From Candidatus Methylumidiphilus alinenensis (GTDB lineage: Bacteria > Pseudomonadota > Gammaproteobacteria > Methylococcales > Methylococcaceae), in assembly GCA_003242955.1 (NCBI GenBank), contig QJPH01000314.1, positions 1-64,000 of the forward strand: a DNA stretch of 64,000 nt, in the 5' to 3' direction. The notes beneath the pieces were generated by a model. That model ran no database searches and was not told where the DNA came from. It saw only the letters and a list, made by a program, of their open reading frames with translations. Shown here piece by piece: positions 7,101 through 58,013 of this stretch. The stretch's first letter is position 1. Every line of letters begins with the position of its first letter. A program made the translations under genes and the position numbers.

Positions 7101-7514
7101 AGAGCAAATTCCAGGGTAGTACAGGGCCTTCAGGTCGATTCAACACGCTATTATCATGCGGCCCGAAACATCATAAGCGGACAATTTTCCGTCATGGGTA
7201 ATCAAGCGCATAGGTTCGGCAAAAGCCTGACATGGCTTTAAGCAAAGCGAAATCCATCGTCCAAGGTTGGCAAACTGTGGGGTACAAGAGATGCCCTCGT
7301 ATCCACGCACGATAAACTAAGGCAAGACAAGTCGCCTGAATCAATCACTTGCACAACCTACTGATTACCGTCCATGGCCTGGATTTCGGCATCCCTGCCG
7401 AAATGACGGCTTTTCCCGATTTTCCTGACTTGTGTATAAAGGCAAGGGCAGGAGCTTGGGAACGAGCAAGCAAAAAGTGATGCGGGAGGCAAGCCTTGCA
7501 CTCCCGTCTTAATG

Positions 7515-12277: not shown

Positions 12278-12934
12278 ATGTTTATTTGGTCAGACACATT
12301 TAATACAAATATAGAGCTTGTTGATTTACAGCACAAGAACCTTTTTCAGTTGCTTAACAAGCTGAGCTTAAACATTAAACAAGACAATATAAGCTATGAA
12401 GATGTGAATAACTCTATTAAACTGTTAATCCATTATACAGAAAATCATTTACGCGATGAAGAACTCCTGATGATGGAAAGTCGCATTGATAAGCGGCATT
12501 TAACTAAACACCGTATGGAGCATAATTCTTTTTTGTATGATGTTGGCCTTTTTAGCGATATAACTTCTTCCGATGATCGCCGCATCACTAGAAAAGCGAC
12601 AAATCTGGTGCGCTTCATAACCTATTGGCTAATATTCCATATCTTAGGGACGGACATGCTTATGTCTGCACAATTGACTAATATTAAAGCAGGAATGAGT
12701 CCTCAGCAAGCGTTTGATATGTTGAAAGACCATAAGATTGACCCTGCTACAGTCAACTTAATGCTGGATGCAATCATTAACCTATGGCTTGATGCCAAAG
12801 AGCGCTGCAATCAGATGGAGATAAAAGTGACTGAATTGCAAAAGACAATAGAGTCTCTCCAATCCAAACAGGAACCTTCTACCATAAACCAATCTGAGGA
12901 TTCGGCCTTGGAAATGGATTGGTTCATCAAATAG
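12278..12934 (+). CDS. Bacteriohemerythrin-like protein 1
   Basis: A 218-aa cytoplasmic protein with an N-terminal hemerythrin fold (about residues 1-130) that would bind oxygen at a di-iron site. Ligand candidates are DLQH (His19), NHLRDEE (His57, Glu61), the HLTKHRMEH segment (His78, His82) and HILGTD. A helical tail follows, with coiled-coil character near residues 165-190 (KERCNQMEIKVTELQKTIES). The gene is clearly richer in A+T than its surroundings. A close paralogue follows 54 bp downstream. In methanotrophs hemerythrins are thought to supply oxygen to methane monooxygenase, but no such gene is nearby. Confidence 0.85.
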   Translation: MFIWSDTFNTNIELVDLQHKNLFQLLNKLSLNIKQDNISYEDVNNSIKLLIHYTENHLRDEELLMMESRIDKRHLTKHRMEHNSFLYDVGLFSDITSSDDRRITRKATNLVRFITYWLIFHILGTDMLMSAQLTNIKAGMSPQQAFDMLKDHKIDPATVNLMLDAIINLWLDAKERCNQMEIKVTELQKTIESLQSKQEPSTINQSEDSALEMDWFIK

Positions 12935-12988
12935 ATAGTTCAGCAGAGTTGGTGCTTATGATGATAAAATCACTGTAAGGATGTTTAA

Positions 12989-13612
12989 ATGCTTTTGTGG
13001 TCGGGTAGTTTTGAGACAAAAATCGACTTTGTCGATAGGCATCATAAAGAGATATTTCAACTGCTGAATAATCTTATAAACAAAATGCAACAGGGAAATA
13101 TAAGCCATGAAGATATTGATAGTGCCGTACATCTATTGATCCACCATACTAAAAACAATTTCCATAATGAAGAACTATTAATGCTAGAAAGCCATGTCGA
13201 TCAAAGGCATTCGGCTATGCATCACATGGAACATCAATCCTTCATCTATGATATTGATAATTTTAGTGAAATATCAGGTTCTTATGATCGTAGAATTACC
13301 GGAAAGGTAGATAAACTCGTGCGCTTCATGACCTTTTGGCTAACCTATCATACCTTGGGTACGGATAAGCTTATGGCCGCGCAAATTGCCAATATTAAGT
13401 CGGGCATGACACCTCAACAAGCCTACGATTCATTGAAAGATCAAAAACAGGATCCTGTCACCGTCAAAATGATACAAGATTCATTGCTTAACTTATGGCT
13501 TGAGAGTAAGGAGAGATGCGCACAGTTGGAAAAAAAGTGCGGCGAATTTGAAAAAAACATAGAAGAACTCAAGGTAGAATTGCAAATAATGACCTTCACA
13601 CACCATAATTAA
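12989..13612 (+). CDS. Bacteriohemerythrin-like protein 2
   Basis: A 207-aa paralogue of the preceding protein, similar over its whole length, with the same layout: DRHHKE near residue 20, NNFHNEE, HSAMHHMEHQSF and the YHTLGTD end of the hemerythrin domain, then a coiled-coil tail (KERCAQLEKKCGEFEKNIEELK). It is also A+T-rich. Start ATG follows TAAGGATG. The pair is a tandem duplication. It is followed at 24 bp by the GtrA fusion gene, but a functional link is not evident. Confidence 0.85.
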   Translation: MLLWSGSFETKIDFVDRHHKEIFQLLNNLINKMQQGNISHEDIDSAVHLLIHHTKNNFHNEELLMLESHVDQRHSAMHHMEHQSFIYDIDNFSEISGSYDRRITGKVDKLVRFMTFWLTYHTLGTDKLMAAQIANIKSGMTPQQAYDSLKDQKQDPVTVKMIQDSLLNLWLESKERCAQLEKKCGEFEKNIEELKVELQIMTFTHHN

Positions 13613-13636: not shown

Positions 13637-15541
13637 ATGGACTTAACGGTTTTAAAATCACGCATACCCCATTCATTTTGGCGTTTTGCGTTGGTGGGCA
13701 TCGGCGGTTTGTTAGTCGATTTGACCGTCCTCTATGTTGGCCTTTGGGGTTTGGGCTTGCCATGGTTTTTAGCGAAGGTGTTTTCCTTTTTTACCGCCGC
13801 AACATTCACTTGGTGGATGAACAGGCAATATAACTTTGGCAAAAGCGACAAATCCATCATTATTGAATGGGGAAGCTTTTTAGCAACCAATGCTTTTGGC
13901 GGCTTTGTCAATTTATCCATTTACACCGCCGCTGTCACACAGTTTCCCCCTTACGTTTGGATGCCTGCCGTGGCGACTGGATTAGGCTCGTTGGGTGGCC
14001 TATTTTTTAATTATTTGCTGTCCAAACATATCGTTTTTAGCAAAATCTCCAAGCAGGAAATCATTGCCAAGTACGCTGAGATAGCGGATGTCCCTCCTTT
14101 TCCCCGCATACTTTATTTAATCACTTTTCTTGTTTGCTTGACCTTTGGCTTGGTGGCACTTTGGTTTGGCATGGACACCCGTTGGGATTTAACAACTTAC
14201 CCACTGTACAACGATTGGGCATTTGTCAACGGACTGGCCGACAGCAATTGGCTGCTAAGCCAGATAGCCAATTTATACAATCCACTGCTGGCAGCGCCTT
14301 ATACAATGGCGACCGAACGTCTGCCCGCACAGGCCATCGGATTCGCATTGGGTACGCTTCATGGTTTTAACTTTCTGCCCTTGTCTGCCATCGCCTGGCA
14401 TCTTTTGACTTTAACCCACCCGCGCCATCGCCTTTATGCTTCTGCTATTTTGGCCTTGGTTGGGTTGTGTGGTGCCGGAGGGCTTTCCGAAATTGGCATC
14501 ATGTTTTATGACAATGTGTTAAGTTTGGGGGTGTTGGCCTCAATTCTGTTGGTGGTGTCAAACTGGAACAAAATCATCCATGGATCTAAGCTTACAAGCA
14601 TTGCCTGGACGGCCGTAGCCGGCGTTCCTGTAGGAATGGTTTTTGGGTTGAAACAATCCATGGTGATATATTGTGTTGGGCTGACGGTGGCTTTTCTTGT
14701 TGCCGACATGGCCCCACTGCGCCGGGTACGCACGAGTTTTTGCTTTGGCATCGGGGTTTTGATTGGATTCGCCTTGAGCGGGGGTTATTGGGCCGTGCAT
14801 TTGTGGAAAACCGTTGGCAATCCCTTCTTCCCTTATTTTAATCAAACATTCCGCACGCTATTGGTTCTGCCCGTTCCTTACCGGGCTCCCGATTTTATTC
14901 CGCAGGGTCTCGTTGAAAAAATTTTGTTCGTTTTTCGTTTTAGCTTCAATAGCCACTTGTGCGGAGAAACCGGCTTTCGTGATTTTCGTATTTTGGCACT
15001 ACTAATCCTACTTCTGCTGGCTGCACTGGCGAGGATTTGGCGCAAGCAGCCCCATCCTTTTACCCATCCCGGGCCTACTGTTTGGATTTTGGTGGCGGGT
15101 TTAGTGACCTATGCCATTTGGGTTCCTTGGCTTGCCATTTACCGCTATATTGTACCCTTGGAAATACTTGCCCCATTGTTGTCAATAGCCGCCATTGGGC
15201 TATTACCACTGGGAAAAAGAACACGCCTAGGCGCTGCGGTCAGCTTAATAGCTTTTTTAACTGTTTCAACGATACCAAGCCACTGGTTACAGACACCTTG
15301 GGAGGACAGCAATTCTCATTTTGGCAAAAACGCCGTCATTCCGGCTAGGATGCCGGAATCCAGTGCCATGGATCACTGCCATTATGTTAAGGATTTTCCG
15401 TTCGCACTGAGCCTGTCGAAGGGTGGACGGAAAATCCCCAGATTATTGATCGTTAAGCCGTTCATGGTTCGACAGGCTCACCACGAACGGCTTAACTTAA
15501 TGGCAGTGAGTGCCATGGATGGTAACGAGTCGGTTGAGTAG
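13637..15541 (+). CDS. GtrA domain fused to a polytopic glycosyltransferase-like protein, C-terminus replaced by repeats
   Basis: The N-terminal 140 residues are a four-helix GtrA domain (FWRFALVGIGGLLVDLTVLY, RQYNFG), the class thought to move undecaprenyl-linked sugars across the inner membrane. A second unit from about residue 155 has about ten helices (WLLSQIANLYNPLLAAPYTM, LTHPRHRLYASAILAL) like membrane glycosyltransferases that use such lipids. The native sequence seems to end near IPSHWLQTPWEDSNSHFGKN (about residue 567). The last 65 or so residues (NAVIPARMPESSAMDH, FALSLSKG, MVRQAHHER) are translations of known repeat types. The gene is therefore probably truncated, perhaps inactive. 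Confidence 0.8.
   Translation: MDLTVLKSRIPHSFWRFALVGIGGLLVDLTVLYVGLWGLGLPWFLAKVFSFFTAATFTWWMNRQYNFGKSDKSIIIEWGSFLATNAFGGFVNLSIYTAAVTQFPPYVWMPAVATGLGSLGGLFFNYLLSKHIVFSKISKQEIIAKYAEIADVPPFPRILYLITFLVCLTFGLVALWFGMDTRWDLTTYPLYNDWAFVNGLADSNWLLSQIANLYNPLLAAPYTMATERLPAQAIGFALGTLHGFNFLPLSAIAWHLLTLTHPRHRLYASAILALVGLCGAGGLSEIGIMFYDNVLSLGVLASILLVVSNWNKIIHGSKLTSIAWTAVAGVPVGMVFGLKQSMVIYCVGLTVAFLVADMAPLRRVRTSFCFGIGVLIGFALSGGYWAVHLWKTVGNPFFPYFNQTFRTLLVLPVPYRAPDFIPQGLVEKILFVFRFSFNSHLCGETGFRDFRILALLILLLLAALARIWRKQPHPFTHPGPTVWILVAGLVTYAIWVPWLAIYRYIVPLEILAPLLSIAAIGLLPLGKRTRLGAAVSLIAFLTVSTIPSHWLQTPWEDSNSHFGKNAVIPARMPESSAMDHCHYVKDFPFALSLSKGGRKIPRLLIVKPFMVRQAHHERLNLMAVSAMDGNESVE
15374..15508. mobile_element. CACTGCC-type inverted-repeat element, copy 1
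   Basis: 18-bp ends CACTGCCATTATGTTAAG (15374-15391) and CTTAACTTAATGGCAGTG (15491-15508) match as inverted repeats at 17 of 18 positions. A 12-bp direct repeat AGTGCCATGGAT sits immediately outside each end (15362-15373, 15509-15520), as expected of a target duplication. The interior carries a palindrome with TTCGACAGGCTCA arms. It lies in a CGTCATTCCGG-type repeat inside the glycosyltransferase frame. Confidence 0.85.
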
Positions 15542-15585
15542 GGGATTGATTAATCGTCGATTGCGGATTCTAGTTCAACGGCTAC

Positions 15586-16179
15586 TCAGGTTGCCTCTTT
15601 CGCTTCGACAAGGATTTCGACAGCTTCTTTCAGTACATATAATCCGATTAATAACCCGATTATCAAATCCACAATGCTCAACCCGGTCACTGCGACAATG
15701 CCCCCTGAAGCGAAAACAGCAAGGTTGGCAATCACATCAGCCCTTGTGCAGATGTAGCTCGCCCGCAGGTGGACCTCGCCGCGATGGAATTTTGCAACTT
15801 GCGTCAGTACGTAAAGATTGACTGCAAACGAAACGGTGGAATAAACCATCATTACCGACCCGACCGGCTCGCTGCCAAAAAACCATCGCCTCACCACATC
15901 CAAGATGATGCCGATGCCGAGTAAAACCAAAATTCCGCCACTCCAACGAGCGGCATTTTTTTTGAACGCCAGTCCACGCGAGATGGCCATGAGGGACAAC
16001 CCATAGGTTATCGCGTCGGTCAGCATGTCAAGCGCGTCGGCTAGTAGGCCGGTTGATTCCGCCAAAAGGCCCGCAATTGTGCCGATGGCGAACATCGTCA
16101 AATTCAAAGCAAGCGCAACACGCAGCGTTTTGCGCTCCGCTGATGTGTTGGCGCATGCCTTTGCGCAGTCACAACTCAT
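15586..16179 (-). CDS. Cation diffusion facilitator-type transporter
   Basis: A 197-aa inner-membrane protein with five to six predicted helices. Its N-terminus is cysteine-bearing (MSCDCAKAC), a possible metal-binding tip. The metal-site helices of CDF exporters are visible as LLADALDMLTDAITY and CTRADVIANLAVF. The cytoplasmic C-terminal domain of classical CDF proteins is missing, which is usual in the short form found in RND-efflux operons. It begins 1 bp after the lipoprotein gene and is the last gene of the metal-efflux operon. Predicted role: exporting zinc, cobalt or cadmium to the periplasm for the RND pump. Confidence 0.85.
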   Translation of the reverse strand: MSCDCAKACANTSAERKTLRVALALNLTMFAIGTIAGLLAESTGLLADALDMLTDAITYGLSLMAISRGLAFKKNAARWSGGILVLLGIGIILDVVRRWFFGSEPVGSVMMVYSTVSFAVNLYVLTQVAKFHRGEVHLRASYICTRADVIANLAVFASGGIVAVTGLSIVDLIIGLLIGLYVLKEAVEILVEAKEAT

Positions 16180-30253: not shown

Positions 30254-31758
30254 CTGATAATTAAATAGTAGAACTCAGTTGTGCCAACTTTGTCTTTTAA
30301 AAATTGGCTTGGTTGGGTATTCATTATTATATTGATTTATTAAGAAGAAAATTCTGTACAAAGTAACCGATGCTTTAGGTCTTAAACACCATCGCTCGTT
30401 GTTAGAAGTCCCACTGGGCTAGGAATCGCCGTCATTCCGGCCGGGATGCCGGACAAATCGGCAGGATAGCCGATTTGCACGGCTTCGCCGCCCGAAGGGT
30501 AAGGGACATGGATGTCCCTTATGCATCCAGTGCCATGGATGGTAACTAGCCGTTTGCACGAGTGTTTGGTTTTTTACTGTTGCTGGTTCCCAAGCTCCAG
30601 CTCTTATCGTTATACACAAGTCCGGGCAAGTCCGAAAAACCGTCATTTCGGCAGGGATGCCGAAATCCAGGCCAAGGACGGTAACCACTCGGCTGTGCAA
30701 GTGCTTGATTCAGATAGCTTGCCAGTCCGTAGTTGAACTGGTTCCCAAGCACCGGCTCTCGCCGTTATACACAAGTCCGACCGAGCAAGAAACGTCGTCA
30801 TTCCGGCAGGGATTGCCGGAATCCAGAAGCCATGGAGGGCAACTCGTCGTTTAGCAAGTGTTTGATTTTGTTAATTCCAAATCAACAACTTCACCTCCCT
30901 GTGGACTGGATGCATGAGAGACATCCATGTCTCTCACCCTTCGGGCGGCGAAGCCGTGCAAATCGGCTGTCCTGCCGATTTGTCCGGCAATTCCTGCCTT
31001 AATGACATACCCCCCAACACTTTTGTATAACGACGAGATATCCAGCTTGAGAAAACCTTTGCCTCGCAAGTTCTATGTTATTTAACACCGGAAGCAGGAG
31101 CTTCCAATGCCGCATTCCCAAGCTGGAGCTTGGGAACGAGCAGAATCGCTCGTAGTTAGTAACCGTTCACTCCCTCTGCCTTTTGTGCTGGTTCCCAAGT
31201 TCCAGTTCCCATCGGCATACACAAGTCCGGCTAAGCCAGAAAAGCCGTCATTTCGGCAGGGATGCCGAAATCCAGGCCATGGACGGTAGCCAGCCAGTTG
31301 TGCAAGTGCTTGATTAAGATTACTTGCCAGCCAGTAGTTTCACGTCCTTGGACACCGGGACATCTATCGTGGTCCGTAGTTTGCCATCCGTGAACGCTGG
31401 ACTTCGGCATCCGTGCCGAAATGACGAGTCTCCAACATTTGTGTATCACGATGAGAGATGGTACTTGGGAGCTAGTAGAAGTTAAATTGGAGAGCGTATT
31501 AGACTTTATCGGAAACCTAGTTAGTGGTCTCGCCGCTGCTGGATTAGTGGAAGGTTTCCGATGAAGTCTATTCTTCAAGGATTTTGTGAATTTCTTCAAC
31601 GATTGGGGCTTACCACATGATTACACCTTAAGTAGTTCCTGCGGAGTACAGATTTTAGGCGGTTTAAAAAAATGGAGGCCGGTCTAGCCTTTTACCTATA
31701 GTGTAAAATTTAAATAAAAAAAACAGGGCCTTACCTCTTTCTTCCTCAACGCACCCAA
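30254..31758. repeat. 1.5-kb gene-free cluster of dispersed repeats
   Basis: From 30426 to about 31480 the DNA is built almost entirely from modules seen elsewhere: CGTCATTCCGGCNGGGAT palindromes (30428, 30795), CGTCATTTCGGCAGGGATGC palindromes (about 30642, 31247, 31399), GTTCCCAAGCTCCAGCTCT..ATACACAAGTCCGG modules (about 30585, 30750, 31190), and ATCGGCAGGATAGCCGATTT hairpins. They are arranged head-to-tail with little unique sequence. The last part (31501-31574) has the 18-bp inverted repeat also found beside yefM. No coding sequence supported. Confidence 0.85.
31501..31574. repeat. Inverted pair of the TTTCCGAT repeat, left side of yoeB
   Basis: AGACTTTATCGGAAACCT (31501-31518) and GAAGGTTTCCGATGAAGTCTATTCT (31550-31574) are inverted copies of one sequence. 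A third copy lies at 32308-32332 on the other side of the toxin-antitoxin genes. Confidence 0.85.
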
Positions 31759-47727: not shown

Positions 47728-47896
47728 AAGTAGGTGACCATATATTTTTTAACTTTTTGGCTGGCAGGTAGTTGAGCCGTTCGTGGTGAGCTTGTCGAAC
47801 CATGAACGGTTTAACCGACCATCCTTCGACAGGCTCAGGACGAACGGTTAAGCCTTATTTCCTAGTTGTTAAAAAACTTATGAACATCTACTTAGT
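47728..47896. mobile_element. Inverted-repeat element with CTAAGTAG ends
   Basis: CTAAGTAGGTGACCATATAT (47728) and its relative ACTTATGAACATCTACTTAG (ending 47896) are imperfect inverted repeats of about 28 bp. TA is present at both edges. The element interrupts a repeat that is continuous at about 30673-30710 (GGACGGTAACCACTCGG..). Confidence 0.6.
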
Positions 47897-48068: not shown

Positions 48069-48213
48069 CACTGCCTTTAAGTTAAGCCGTCATACCGGCA
48101 TGGATTGCCGGTATCCAGAACACAGGGAGGTGAATCTAGCCCGCCATCCATGGCCTTTGGGTTCCGGCATTCCCTGCCGGAACGACGGGTTTTTCCTTAA
48201 CTTAATGGCAGTG
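48069..48213. mobile_element. CACTGCC-type inverted-repeat element, copy 2
   Basis: Ends CACTGCCTTTAAGTTAAG (48069-48086) and CTTAACTTAATGGCAGTG (48196-48213). The 11-bp AGCCGGAGCTT is directly repeated outside (48058-48068, 48214-48224), a perfect target duplication. The interior carries a CGTCATACCGGCATGGATTG palindrome. Confidence 0.88.
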
Positions 48214-54088: not shown

Positions 54089-54159
54089 CACTGCCATTAA
54101 GTTAAGCGTTCCATCAAAGGCTGATTTCACGCTTAATACATCTTAACTTAATGGCATTG
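54089..54159. mobile_element. CACTGCC-type inverted-repeat element, copy 4 (short)
   Basis: Ends CACTGCCATTAAGTTAAG (54089-54106) and CTTAACTTAATGGCATTG (54142-54159). At 71 bp it is a deleted version of copy 3: the internal TCAAAGGCTGATTTCACGCT is shared with 57726-57854. No direct repeats at the borders. Confidence 0.8.
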
Positions 54160-57665: not shown

Positions 57666-58013
57666 GAGGGTATGGTCAAAAACAACTTCCCGAAAGAAGT
57701 CTGGCTGTTTACCAGGCTCCGGCTTCACTGCCATTAAGTTAAGCGTTTAATCGGAACGCCAAGCCCCCATCAGGGTGTACCGCGCCAAACTGGGGCTTGG
57801 CGTTCCGTCAAAGGCTGATTTCACGCTTAATGCATCTTTAACTCAATGGCAGTGAGGCTCCGGCTCTCATCGTTACACACAAATGTTTGAGGCCCGTCAT
57901 CCCGGCCGGAATGACGGATTTTCCAGTTTGGCTGGACTCGTGTATTATGAGTCGAGCTAGAGCTTGGGAATGAACAAAATATCTATTCTATCGTTTTCCT
58001 TTTGGAGAAAGAA
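57666..58013. repeat. Intergenic region with CACTGCC element
   Basis: Mostly copy 3 of the CACTGCC element (57726-57854), then a GTCATCCCGGCCGGAATGAC palindrome (57897-57916) and a GTCGAGCTAGAGCTTGGGAA module (57951-57970). The small gene starts at 58014. No other gene. Confidence 0.8.
57726..57854. mobile_element. CACTGCC-type inverted-repeat element, copy 3
   Basis: Ends CACTGCCATTAAGTTAAG (57726-57743) and CTTTAACTCAATGGCAGTG (ending 57854). AGGCTCCGGCT is directly repeated on both sides (57714-57724 and 57855-57865), an 11-bp target duplication. The interior has a GGAACGCCAAGCCCC hairpin. Confidence 0.85.

Follow-up and report, generated by a model that had tools for sequence, protein, structure and literature searches.

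The window, that is, the whole 64,000-nucleotide stretch of DNA analyzed here, contains at positions 13637 to 15541 a membrane protein gene that ends in repeat DNA, and this raises the question of how the gene came by its present 3' end. According to the open reading frame check, the frame is stop-free throughout and encodes 634 amino acids, of which residues 566 to 634, a 69-residue tail, are encoded by the repeats. Residues 1 to 565 (13637 to 15331, forward strand) make up a GT-C-like polytopic membrane protein with a GtrA domain (PF04138) at residues 16 to 134 (2.9e-17 in Pfam). Homologues from the same genus are 53 to 70% identical to the product, and the homology extends to about residue 558.

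For the remainder of the protein outside GtrA, no family was found in Pfam or NCBIfam, and a sequence search of the PDB with the product returned no match. The model of a full-length homologue, L010 (pLDDT 62), shows helices to about residue 544, followed by an alpha/beta region. The top PDB folds for this model were GT-C transferases, all with E values of 0.01 or above, and the best fold for its GtrA part was dolichyl-phosphate-mannose synthase, not below an E value of 0.01. The preliminary description of this DNA had labeled the product a glycosyltransferase; the label is weakly backed, by the GtrA domain and, for the rest, by GT-C-like folds at these E values. Thus, the product is likely, but not proven, to be a glycosyltransferase. 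Ahead of the gene, at 12278 to 13612, lie two tandem related open reading frames (218 and 207 amino acids) of hemerythrin-type appearance, probably a duplication.

Nested repeats at the 3' end of the gene

Codon 566 opens at 15332, and the CGTCATTCCGG repeat begins with that base, within one residue of the position at which the preliminary description had placed the end of the real protein sequence. The end of the real protein is less sharp, clear homology already stopping at about residue 558 and residues 559 to 565 not being clearly alignable. The first segment of the tail (15332 to 15373, forward strand; residues 566 to 579; GCCGTCATTCCGGCTAGGATGCCGGAATCCAGTGCCATGGAT) is the left part of an outer CGTC-tagged REP that is multicopy in the draft genome of the organism (6.57 Mb, 597 contigs). 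It reads CGTC ATTCCGGC-TAGGAT-GCCGGAAT CCAG, with the CGTC tag, the AT-starting stem of 8 to 9 bp and the CCA tail that characterize such REPs. There follows, on the same strand, an IS4-type MITE of 135 bp (15374 to 15508; residues 580 to 624) with the ends CACTGCCATTATGTTAAG and CTTAACTTAATGGCAGTG and a core of two TTCGACAGGC palindromes. The 12-bp sequence AGTGCCATGGAT is present as an exact duplication on both flanks of the MITE (15362 to 15373 and 15509 to 15520, forward strand, the right copy encoding residues 625 to 628), and it is the sole 12-mer in the window that recurs at that spacing. The outer REP then continues as a linker from 15521 to about 15553 (forward strand), as judged by alignment to uninterrupted copies, and provides codons 629 to 634 and the stop codon TAG (15539 to 15541).

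Within the window, the outer REP is uninterrupted at 7339 to 7410, 30640 to 30710 and 31244 to 31317, and these copies display the empty site; therefore, the REP came first and the MITE second. Both the insertion of an inverted-repeat element into the outer repeat with a 12-bp duplication and the nested order of the two repeats were thus as had been proposed. Other copies of the outer REP take the form of head-to-head dimers (e.g., 241 to 340); the copy at the gene tail has the left arm alone, and no right palindrome arm was found in 15501 to 16000. A search of 15000 to 16000 against Rfam gave weak matches, far under the gathering scores.

Loss of the C-terminal domain

Four homologues of the same genus (L010, L011, L013 and L018) extend 122 to 128 residues beyond about residue 558. 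The alignment hence upheld the proposed loss of the C-terminal region and, on this comparison, a soluble C-terminal domain is missing from the product. The structure predicted for that domain by itself had a pLDDT of 43 and was set aside. Homologues that end there without repeats do exist in part, alongside the four full-length ones: L012 (genome G002), which has no repeat, ends at about residue 554; L014 (G001) and L024 (G003) have lost most of the same domain through internal deletion, again with no such repeats. The nearest homologues, from G006 and G004 (about 70% identical), are full length. In the tree, the window protein fell outside the pair formed by the G001 and G002 proteins, which are sisters with full support, some inner branches being open. 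This position implies that the domain has been lost at least twice in the genus.

The gene next after the homologue in G001 to G004 is, as we take it from reading by eye, GH30-like; in the window, the next gene is cation-efflux-like and lies on the opposite strand. Replacement of the C-terminal region by two successive insertions, as had been put forward, is not upheld in that form, insertions removing no DNA and the right arm of the outer REP being gone. Because coding region, right arm and GH30-like gene are all missing, a separate deletion or rearrangement is needed, and the same three absences point to one with an end in the REP. The order and cause of the domain loss are nevertheless unproven, because in three relatives this domain was lost although no such repeats are present.

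The loss in sister-clade relatives at almost the same point, with no repeats, would suit a different history, in which a plain deletion truncated the gene first and a REP, repeats of this kind being common near the 3' ends of open reading frames (PMC3733652), then settled by the new end and lent it a stop codon. We put this history at somewhat under an even chance, given that the closest homologues are full length, that no coding remnant of the domain is seen between gene and repeat, and that the truncation of the outer repeat itself suggests its involvement in the rearrangement. In the reading we prefer, repeat DNA has replaced the 3' end of the gene, and a CGTC-tagged REP, of which the left part remains, is the new 3' end. 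The 135-bp nonautonomous MITE inserted into this REP later, with its 12-bp duplication, and the frame continues to the stop codon of the outer repeat, so that the 69-residue tail stands in place of a domain of 122 to 128 residues.

A MITE family with common ends

The 18-bp ends of the element at 15374 to 15508 differ from one another at one base, and the window contains eight such ends, where chance would give 0.07. A single long hairpin is the predicted fold of the element (z = -10.3), and its core has eight near-full copies in the draft genome. Matches to the end sequence of the family (CACTGCCATTAAGTTAAG) at up to two mismatches number 277 in this genome, versus none for a reversed-pattern control. 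Three further elements with the same ends lie on the forward strand of the window, namely, one of 145 bp with a CGTC-type core and the target site duplication AGCCGGAGCTT (48069 to 48213), one of 129 bp with a CGCCAAGCCCC-type core (57726 to 57854) and a shortened one of 71 bp (54089 to 54159).

The ends were also found in five of the six other genomes of the genus, and of 311 genomes in the order, 40 contain exact end pairs 117 to 147 bp long. Exact pairs 116 to 146 bp long in named public genomes came, among the matches listed, from Methylococcales, Legionella and other Legionellales, Thiotrichaceae (e.g., Thiomargarita) and Thiocystis. Duplications of 11 to 12 bp flank 54 of 75 elements of the organism's own genome and 69 of 115 public elements. 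The search of phages gave no match, and that of plasmids gave partial matches in Comamonas alone; a published name for the ends or for the TTCGACAGGC repeat was not found in the open-access literature. Some distant end pairs (L057, 1132 to 1518; L042, 1501 to 2399) enclose composites made up of multiple palindrome units or of more than a single element.

The inner element is short, multicopy and devoid of coding capacity, and has terminal inverted repeats and a target site duplication within the 10 to 13 bp of IS4-derived MITEs. Its ends read CACTG and so depart from the -AATR consensus of the IS4 subgroup, while some sister copies and the insertion sequence (IS) L071 read CAATG. We class it as an IS4-type MITE and make no claim that it belongs to the IS4 subgroup. 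REPIN/RAYT elements are not known to have terminal inverted repeats or a target duplication, and the inner element was ruled out as one of them by the presence of both. It shares with REPINs, which are moved by RAYT tyrosine transposases (PMC3116915), the paired inverted palindromes, a size of about 100 bp and the many copies, but terminal inverted repeats and duplications of 11 to 12 bp are marks of a DDE cut-and-paste enzyme.

The rebuilt target sites form a palindrome, TTCCCA-(A/C)GCT..AGC-TGGGAA, and the duplication lies in the middle of it (TTCCCACGCTCCAGCGTGGGAA being the target hairpin of the elements). At 12-bp sites of the organism's own genome, 8.6 of 14 mirrored pairs match versus 3.5 expected, and at 11-bp sites the values are 6.2 of 13 versus 3.25. 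The insertion site in the gene tail, CC|AGTGCCATGGAT|GG, fits this pattern weakly. The preference for the hairpin target would account for the location of most MITE copies outside genes, and among the 75 own-genome elements, the copy studied here is alone in being read through by a really long open reading frame (584 codons, the next being 154).

Core groups and element lengths

The 190 elements fell into 43 core groups with a coverage filter, 40 at an E value of 1e-8 and 32 at 1e-3; six groups were present among the sampled elements of the draft genome, in which the CGTC REP dimer is the most frequent core. Two inverted palindromes and a linker make up nearly all cores, and the window also contains free copies of several of these palindromes, with no ends around them. 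One free pair of TTCGACAGGC palindromes without inverted-repeat ends lies at 47770 to 47857. Judged from sequence comparison, the family is defined by its ends alone, the cores being unrelated among groups.

The lengths are not evenly spread. With one mode length counted per core group, the 36 groups at 116 to 146 bp lie at 121 to 125, 133 to 137 or 143 to 146 bp, with none at 126 to 132 or 138 to 142 bp, and within 117 to 147 bp the peaks are near 122, 134 and 145 bp. The period is 11.1 to 11.2 bp (R = 0.76 to 0.80; P of ∼2e-4, the lowest value possible with 5,000 draws, under uniform or jittered nulls), for a pattern that was noticed first and tested afterwards, and the scan that yielded most public elements allowed 116 to 146 bp only. 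Lengths read by hand from the order-wide scans gave an R of 0.65 at 117 to 147 bp (29 entries). Outside this range the periodicity is weak, with R values of 0.21 at 86 to 116 bp (n = 9) and 0.23 at 148 to 178 bp (n = 15).

Stepped lengths at 117 to 147 bp agree with a helical phasing of the ends. At about 120 to 145 bp, both ends would have to meet on short, stiff DNA, so that lengths differing by roughly one turn of the helix (11 bp) would be favored. The preferred lengths could instead go back to a small number of ancestral core sizes, or to the size that REP dimers usually have, with no helical constraint, and most cores are indeed built on one plan of two palindromes and a linker, with a periodicity that fades beyond 117 to 147 bp. 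This explanation is possible but rather doubtful, since the lengths of 32 to 40 groups whose cores show no detectable similarity fall into the same three classes, with nothing in the gaps. In addition, IS50, an IS4-family element, is said to have been found by Goryshin in 1994 to be under length and twisting (helical) constraints. A likeness to the phasing that we favor is offered by the Paramecium IESs (PMC3464196), whose helically periodic lengths are explained by end pairing; these are, however, eukaryotic, number tens of thousands, are excised by a domesticated transposase and have a period of about 10.2 bp.

A candidate IS4-type transposase

A partner within the genus was located by way of an IS of a related family and a protein search. 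In G006, the locus L242 carries an exact 18-bp MITE end followed by the N terminus of an IS4-type transposase, cut by the contig end; its match to Nterm_IS4 (E value of 0.004) is under the cutoff, and it is 33 to 38% identical to L071. The draft genome contains a broken copy, L185, 90% identical to L242 over 401 bp, and seven further copies of the L242-type left end lie at contig ends in G001 and G006. A second class of left end in G001 (L248, 508 to 628, and L249, 1 to 133), likewise cut by contig ends, has the same 18-bp end and the same target hairpin but a different inside (GGTGAAACCCGTTTAAAAACAATG). Left ends of the IS type lay in the hairpin target in seven of nine cases in one set and in both cases of another.

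Complete ISs were found in the same bacterial family (L071 to L073; 1,378 to 1,381 bp), with a transposase carrying PF01609, PF13006 and the Y-R-E-K motif. Both ends of L071 and L073 read CAATGCCGTTAAGTTAAG, two mismatches away from the MITE ends, and the right end of L072 is poorer. Ends in common with an IS encoding an IS4-family transposase are therefore present, exact in L242 with its weak Nterm_IS4 match and with two mismatches in L071 and L073. In the draft genome, a profile search with Nterm_IS4 gave nothing above threshold, and none of the 12 DDE_Tnp_1 loci had the MITE ends; within the genus, known from draft genomes, assembly gave no intact autonomous IS whose ends match these exactly. 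The IS4 subgroup (PMC2266710) is similar in its duplications of 10 to 13 bp, its Y(2)R(3)E(6)K motif and the strong target selectivity of some members. The IS found in the bacterial family resembles it further in its length of about 1.38 kb and its -AATR-type ends (CAATGCCG), whereas the window element is only 135 bp long, is gene-free and ends in CACTG.

Proposed course of events and the repeat-coded tail

A putative IS4-type transposase acting in trans would recognize the 18-bp ends only, cut the element out and paste it elsewhere. Its preferred landing site would be the center of small REP-like hairpins, so that most copies would land outside genes; in the present case, the REP that served as target would already have been at a gene end. 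With the ends and their spacing as the sole requirement, any pair of palindromes between two ends could become mobile, and the cores would differ accordingly. The protein may stay in the membrane with the function of its soluble domain lost, or the gene may be decaying. We consider this account as a whole probable, from the REP-replaced 3' end and the later MITE to the trans-acting IS4-type transposase, the helical lengths and the loss of function or decay of the gene.

The tail is probably without function. The preliminary description was right that the frame had stayed open: the MITE and one duplication total 147 bp, or 49 stop-free codons, so that the frame is kept with or without the MITE and reaches the TAG of the outer repeat. 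It is not a special outcome, however, 52 of the 190 related elements being stop-free. In-frame insertion by design was rejected, frame-neutral length and stop-free frame both being within chance. The intact frame across 49 inserted codons could also be taken as the mark of a selected, functional new C terminus, like that proposed for the in-frame palindromic elements of Rickettsia, and repeat-coded protein parts are known in Rickettsia and Coxiella (PMC3733652, PMC5896051). We find this quite improbable: besides the frequency of stop-free frames, a frame-neutral length has a 1-in-3 chance, no other own-genome copy lies in a comparably long open reading frame, and the tail is absent from every homologue. 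An assembly artifact or chimeric contig at the 3' end, which repeats at this spot in a draft of 597 contigs might suggest, is the least credible explanation, considering the exact 12-bp duplication, the motif-fitting site and the neatly nested position within a repeat that is found uninterrupted at other sites.

Comparison with known repeats

Repeat-coded protein ends are already known (PMC3733652, PMC5896051); the gene tail studied here is a clear case of repeats remodeling a protein end, and the MITE is a variant that combines IS4-type ends with exchangeable REP-like cores and stepped lengths. QMITE1 and QMITE2 of Coxiella (PMC5896051) are also bacterial MITEs over gene 3' ends, and enhC of strain Dugway is extended into one, but they are longer (QMITE1 is ∼400 bp) and their authors found no orthologues in other genomes. 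Compared by description only, the MITE in hupL of Thiomargarita (PMC4853749) is similar in lying within a gene, in its 10-bp direct and 19-bp inverted repeats, in its many copies and in a parent IS that was not found; it differs in its length of about 205 bp.

The outer repeat has the CGTC tag, the AT-starting 8-bp stem and the CCA tail in common with the CGTC-tagged REPs, which include dRS3 of Neisseria and RPE-4 and RPE-6 of Rickettsia, are mostly head-to-head dimers, lie at times inside open reading frames and in some families within palindromes (PMC3733652). Unlike these, the outer copy is one-armed with a 6-base loop, and CGTC dimers occur here inside IS4-type ends as well. CGTC REPs have been reported without a dedicated transposase (PMC3733652), and the MITE family would tie them to a DDE transposase family. 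More broadly, the IS4-type end pair might be a general carrier of palindrome pairs, with cores swapped across gammaproteobacteria, lengths in helical steps and REP hairpins serving as both cargo and landing site. We offer this tentatively, inclining slightly against it; if true, CGTC-type REP dimers, said to have no mover, would thereby gain one. A family defined by its ends, with many cores and stepped lengths, would amount to a natural experiment on the permissible spacing of transposon ends. Within the window, four or five CGTC-type repeats are clustered within 1 kb at 30430 to 31440.
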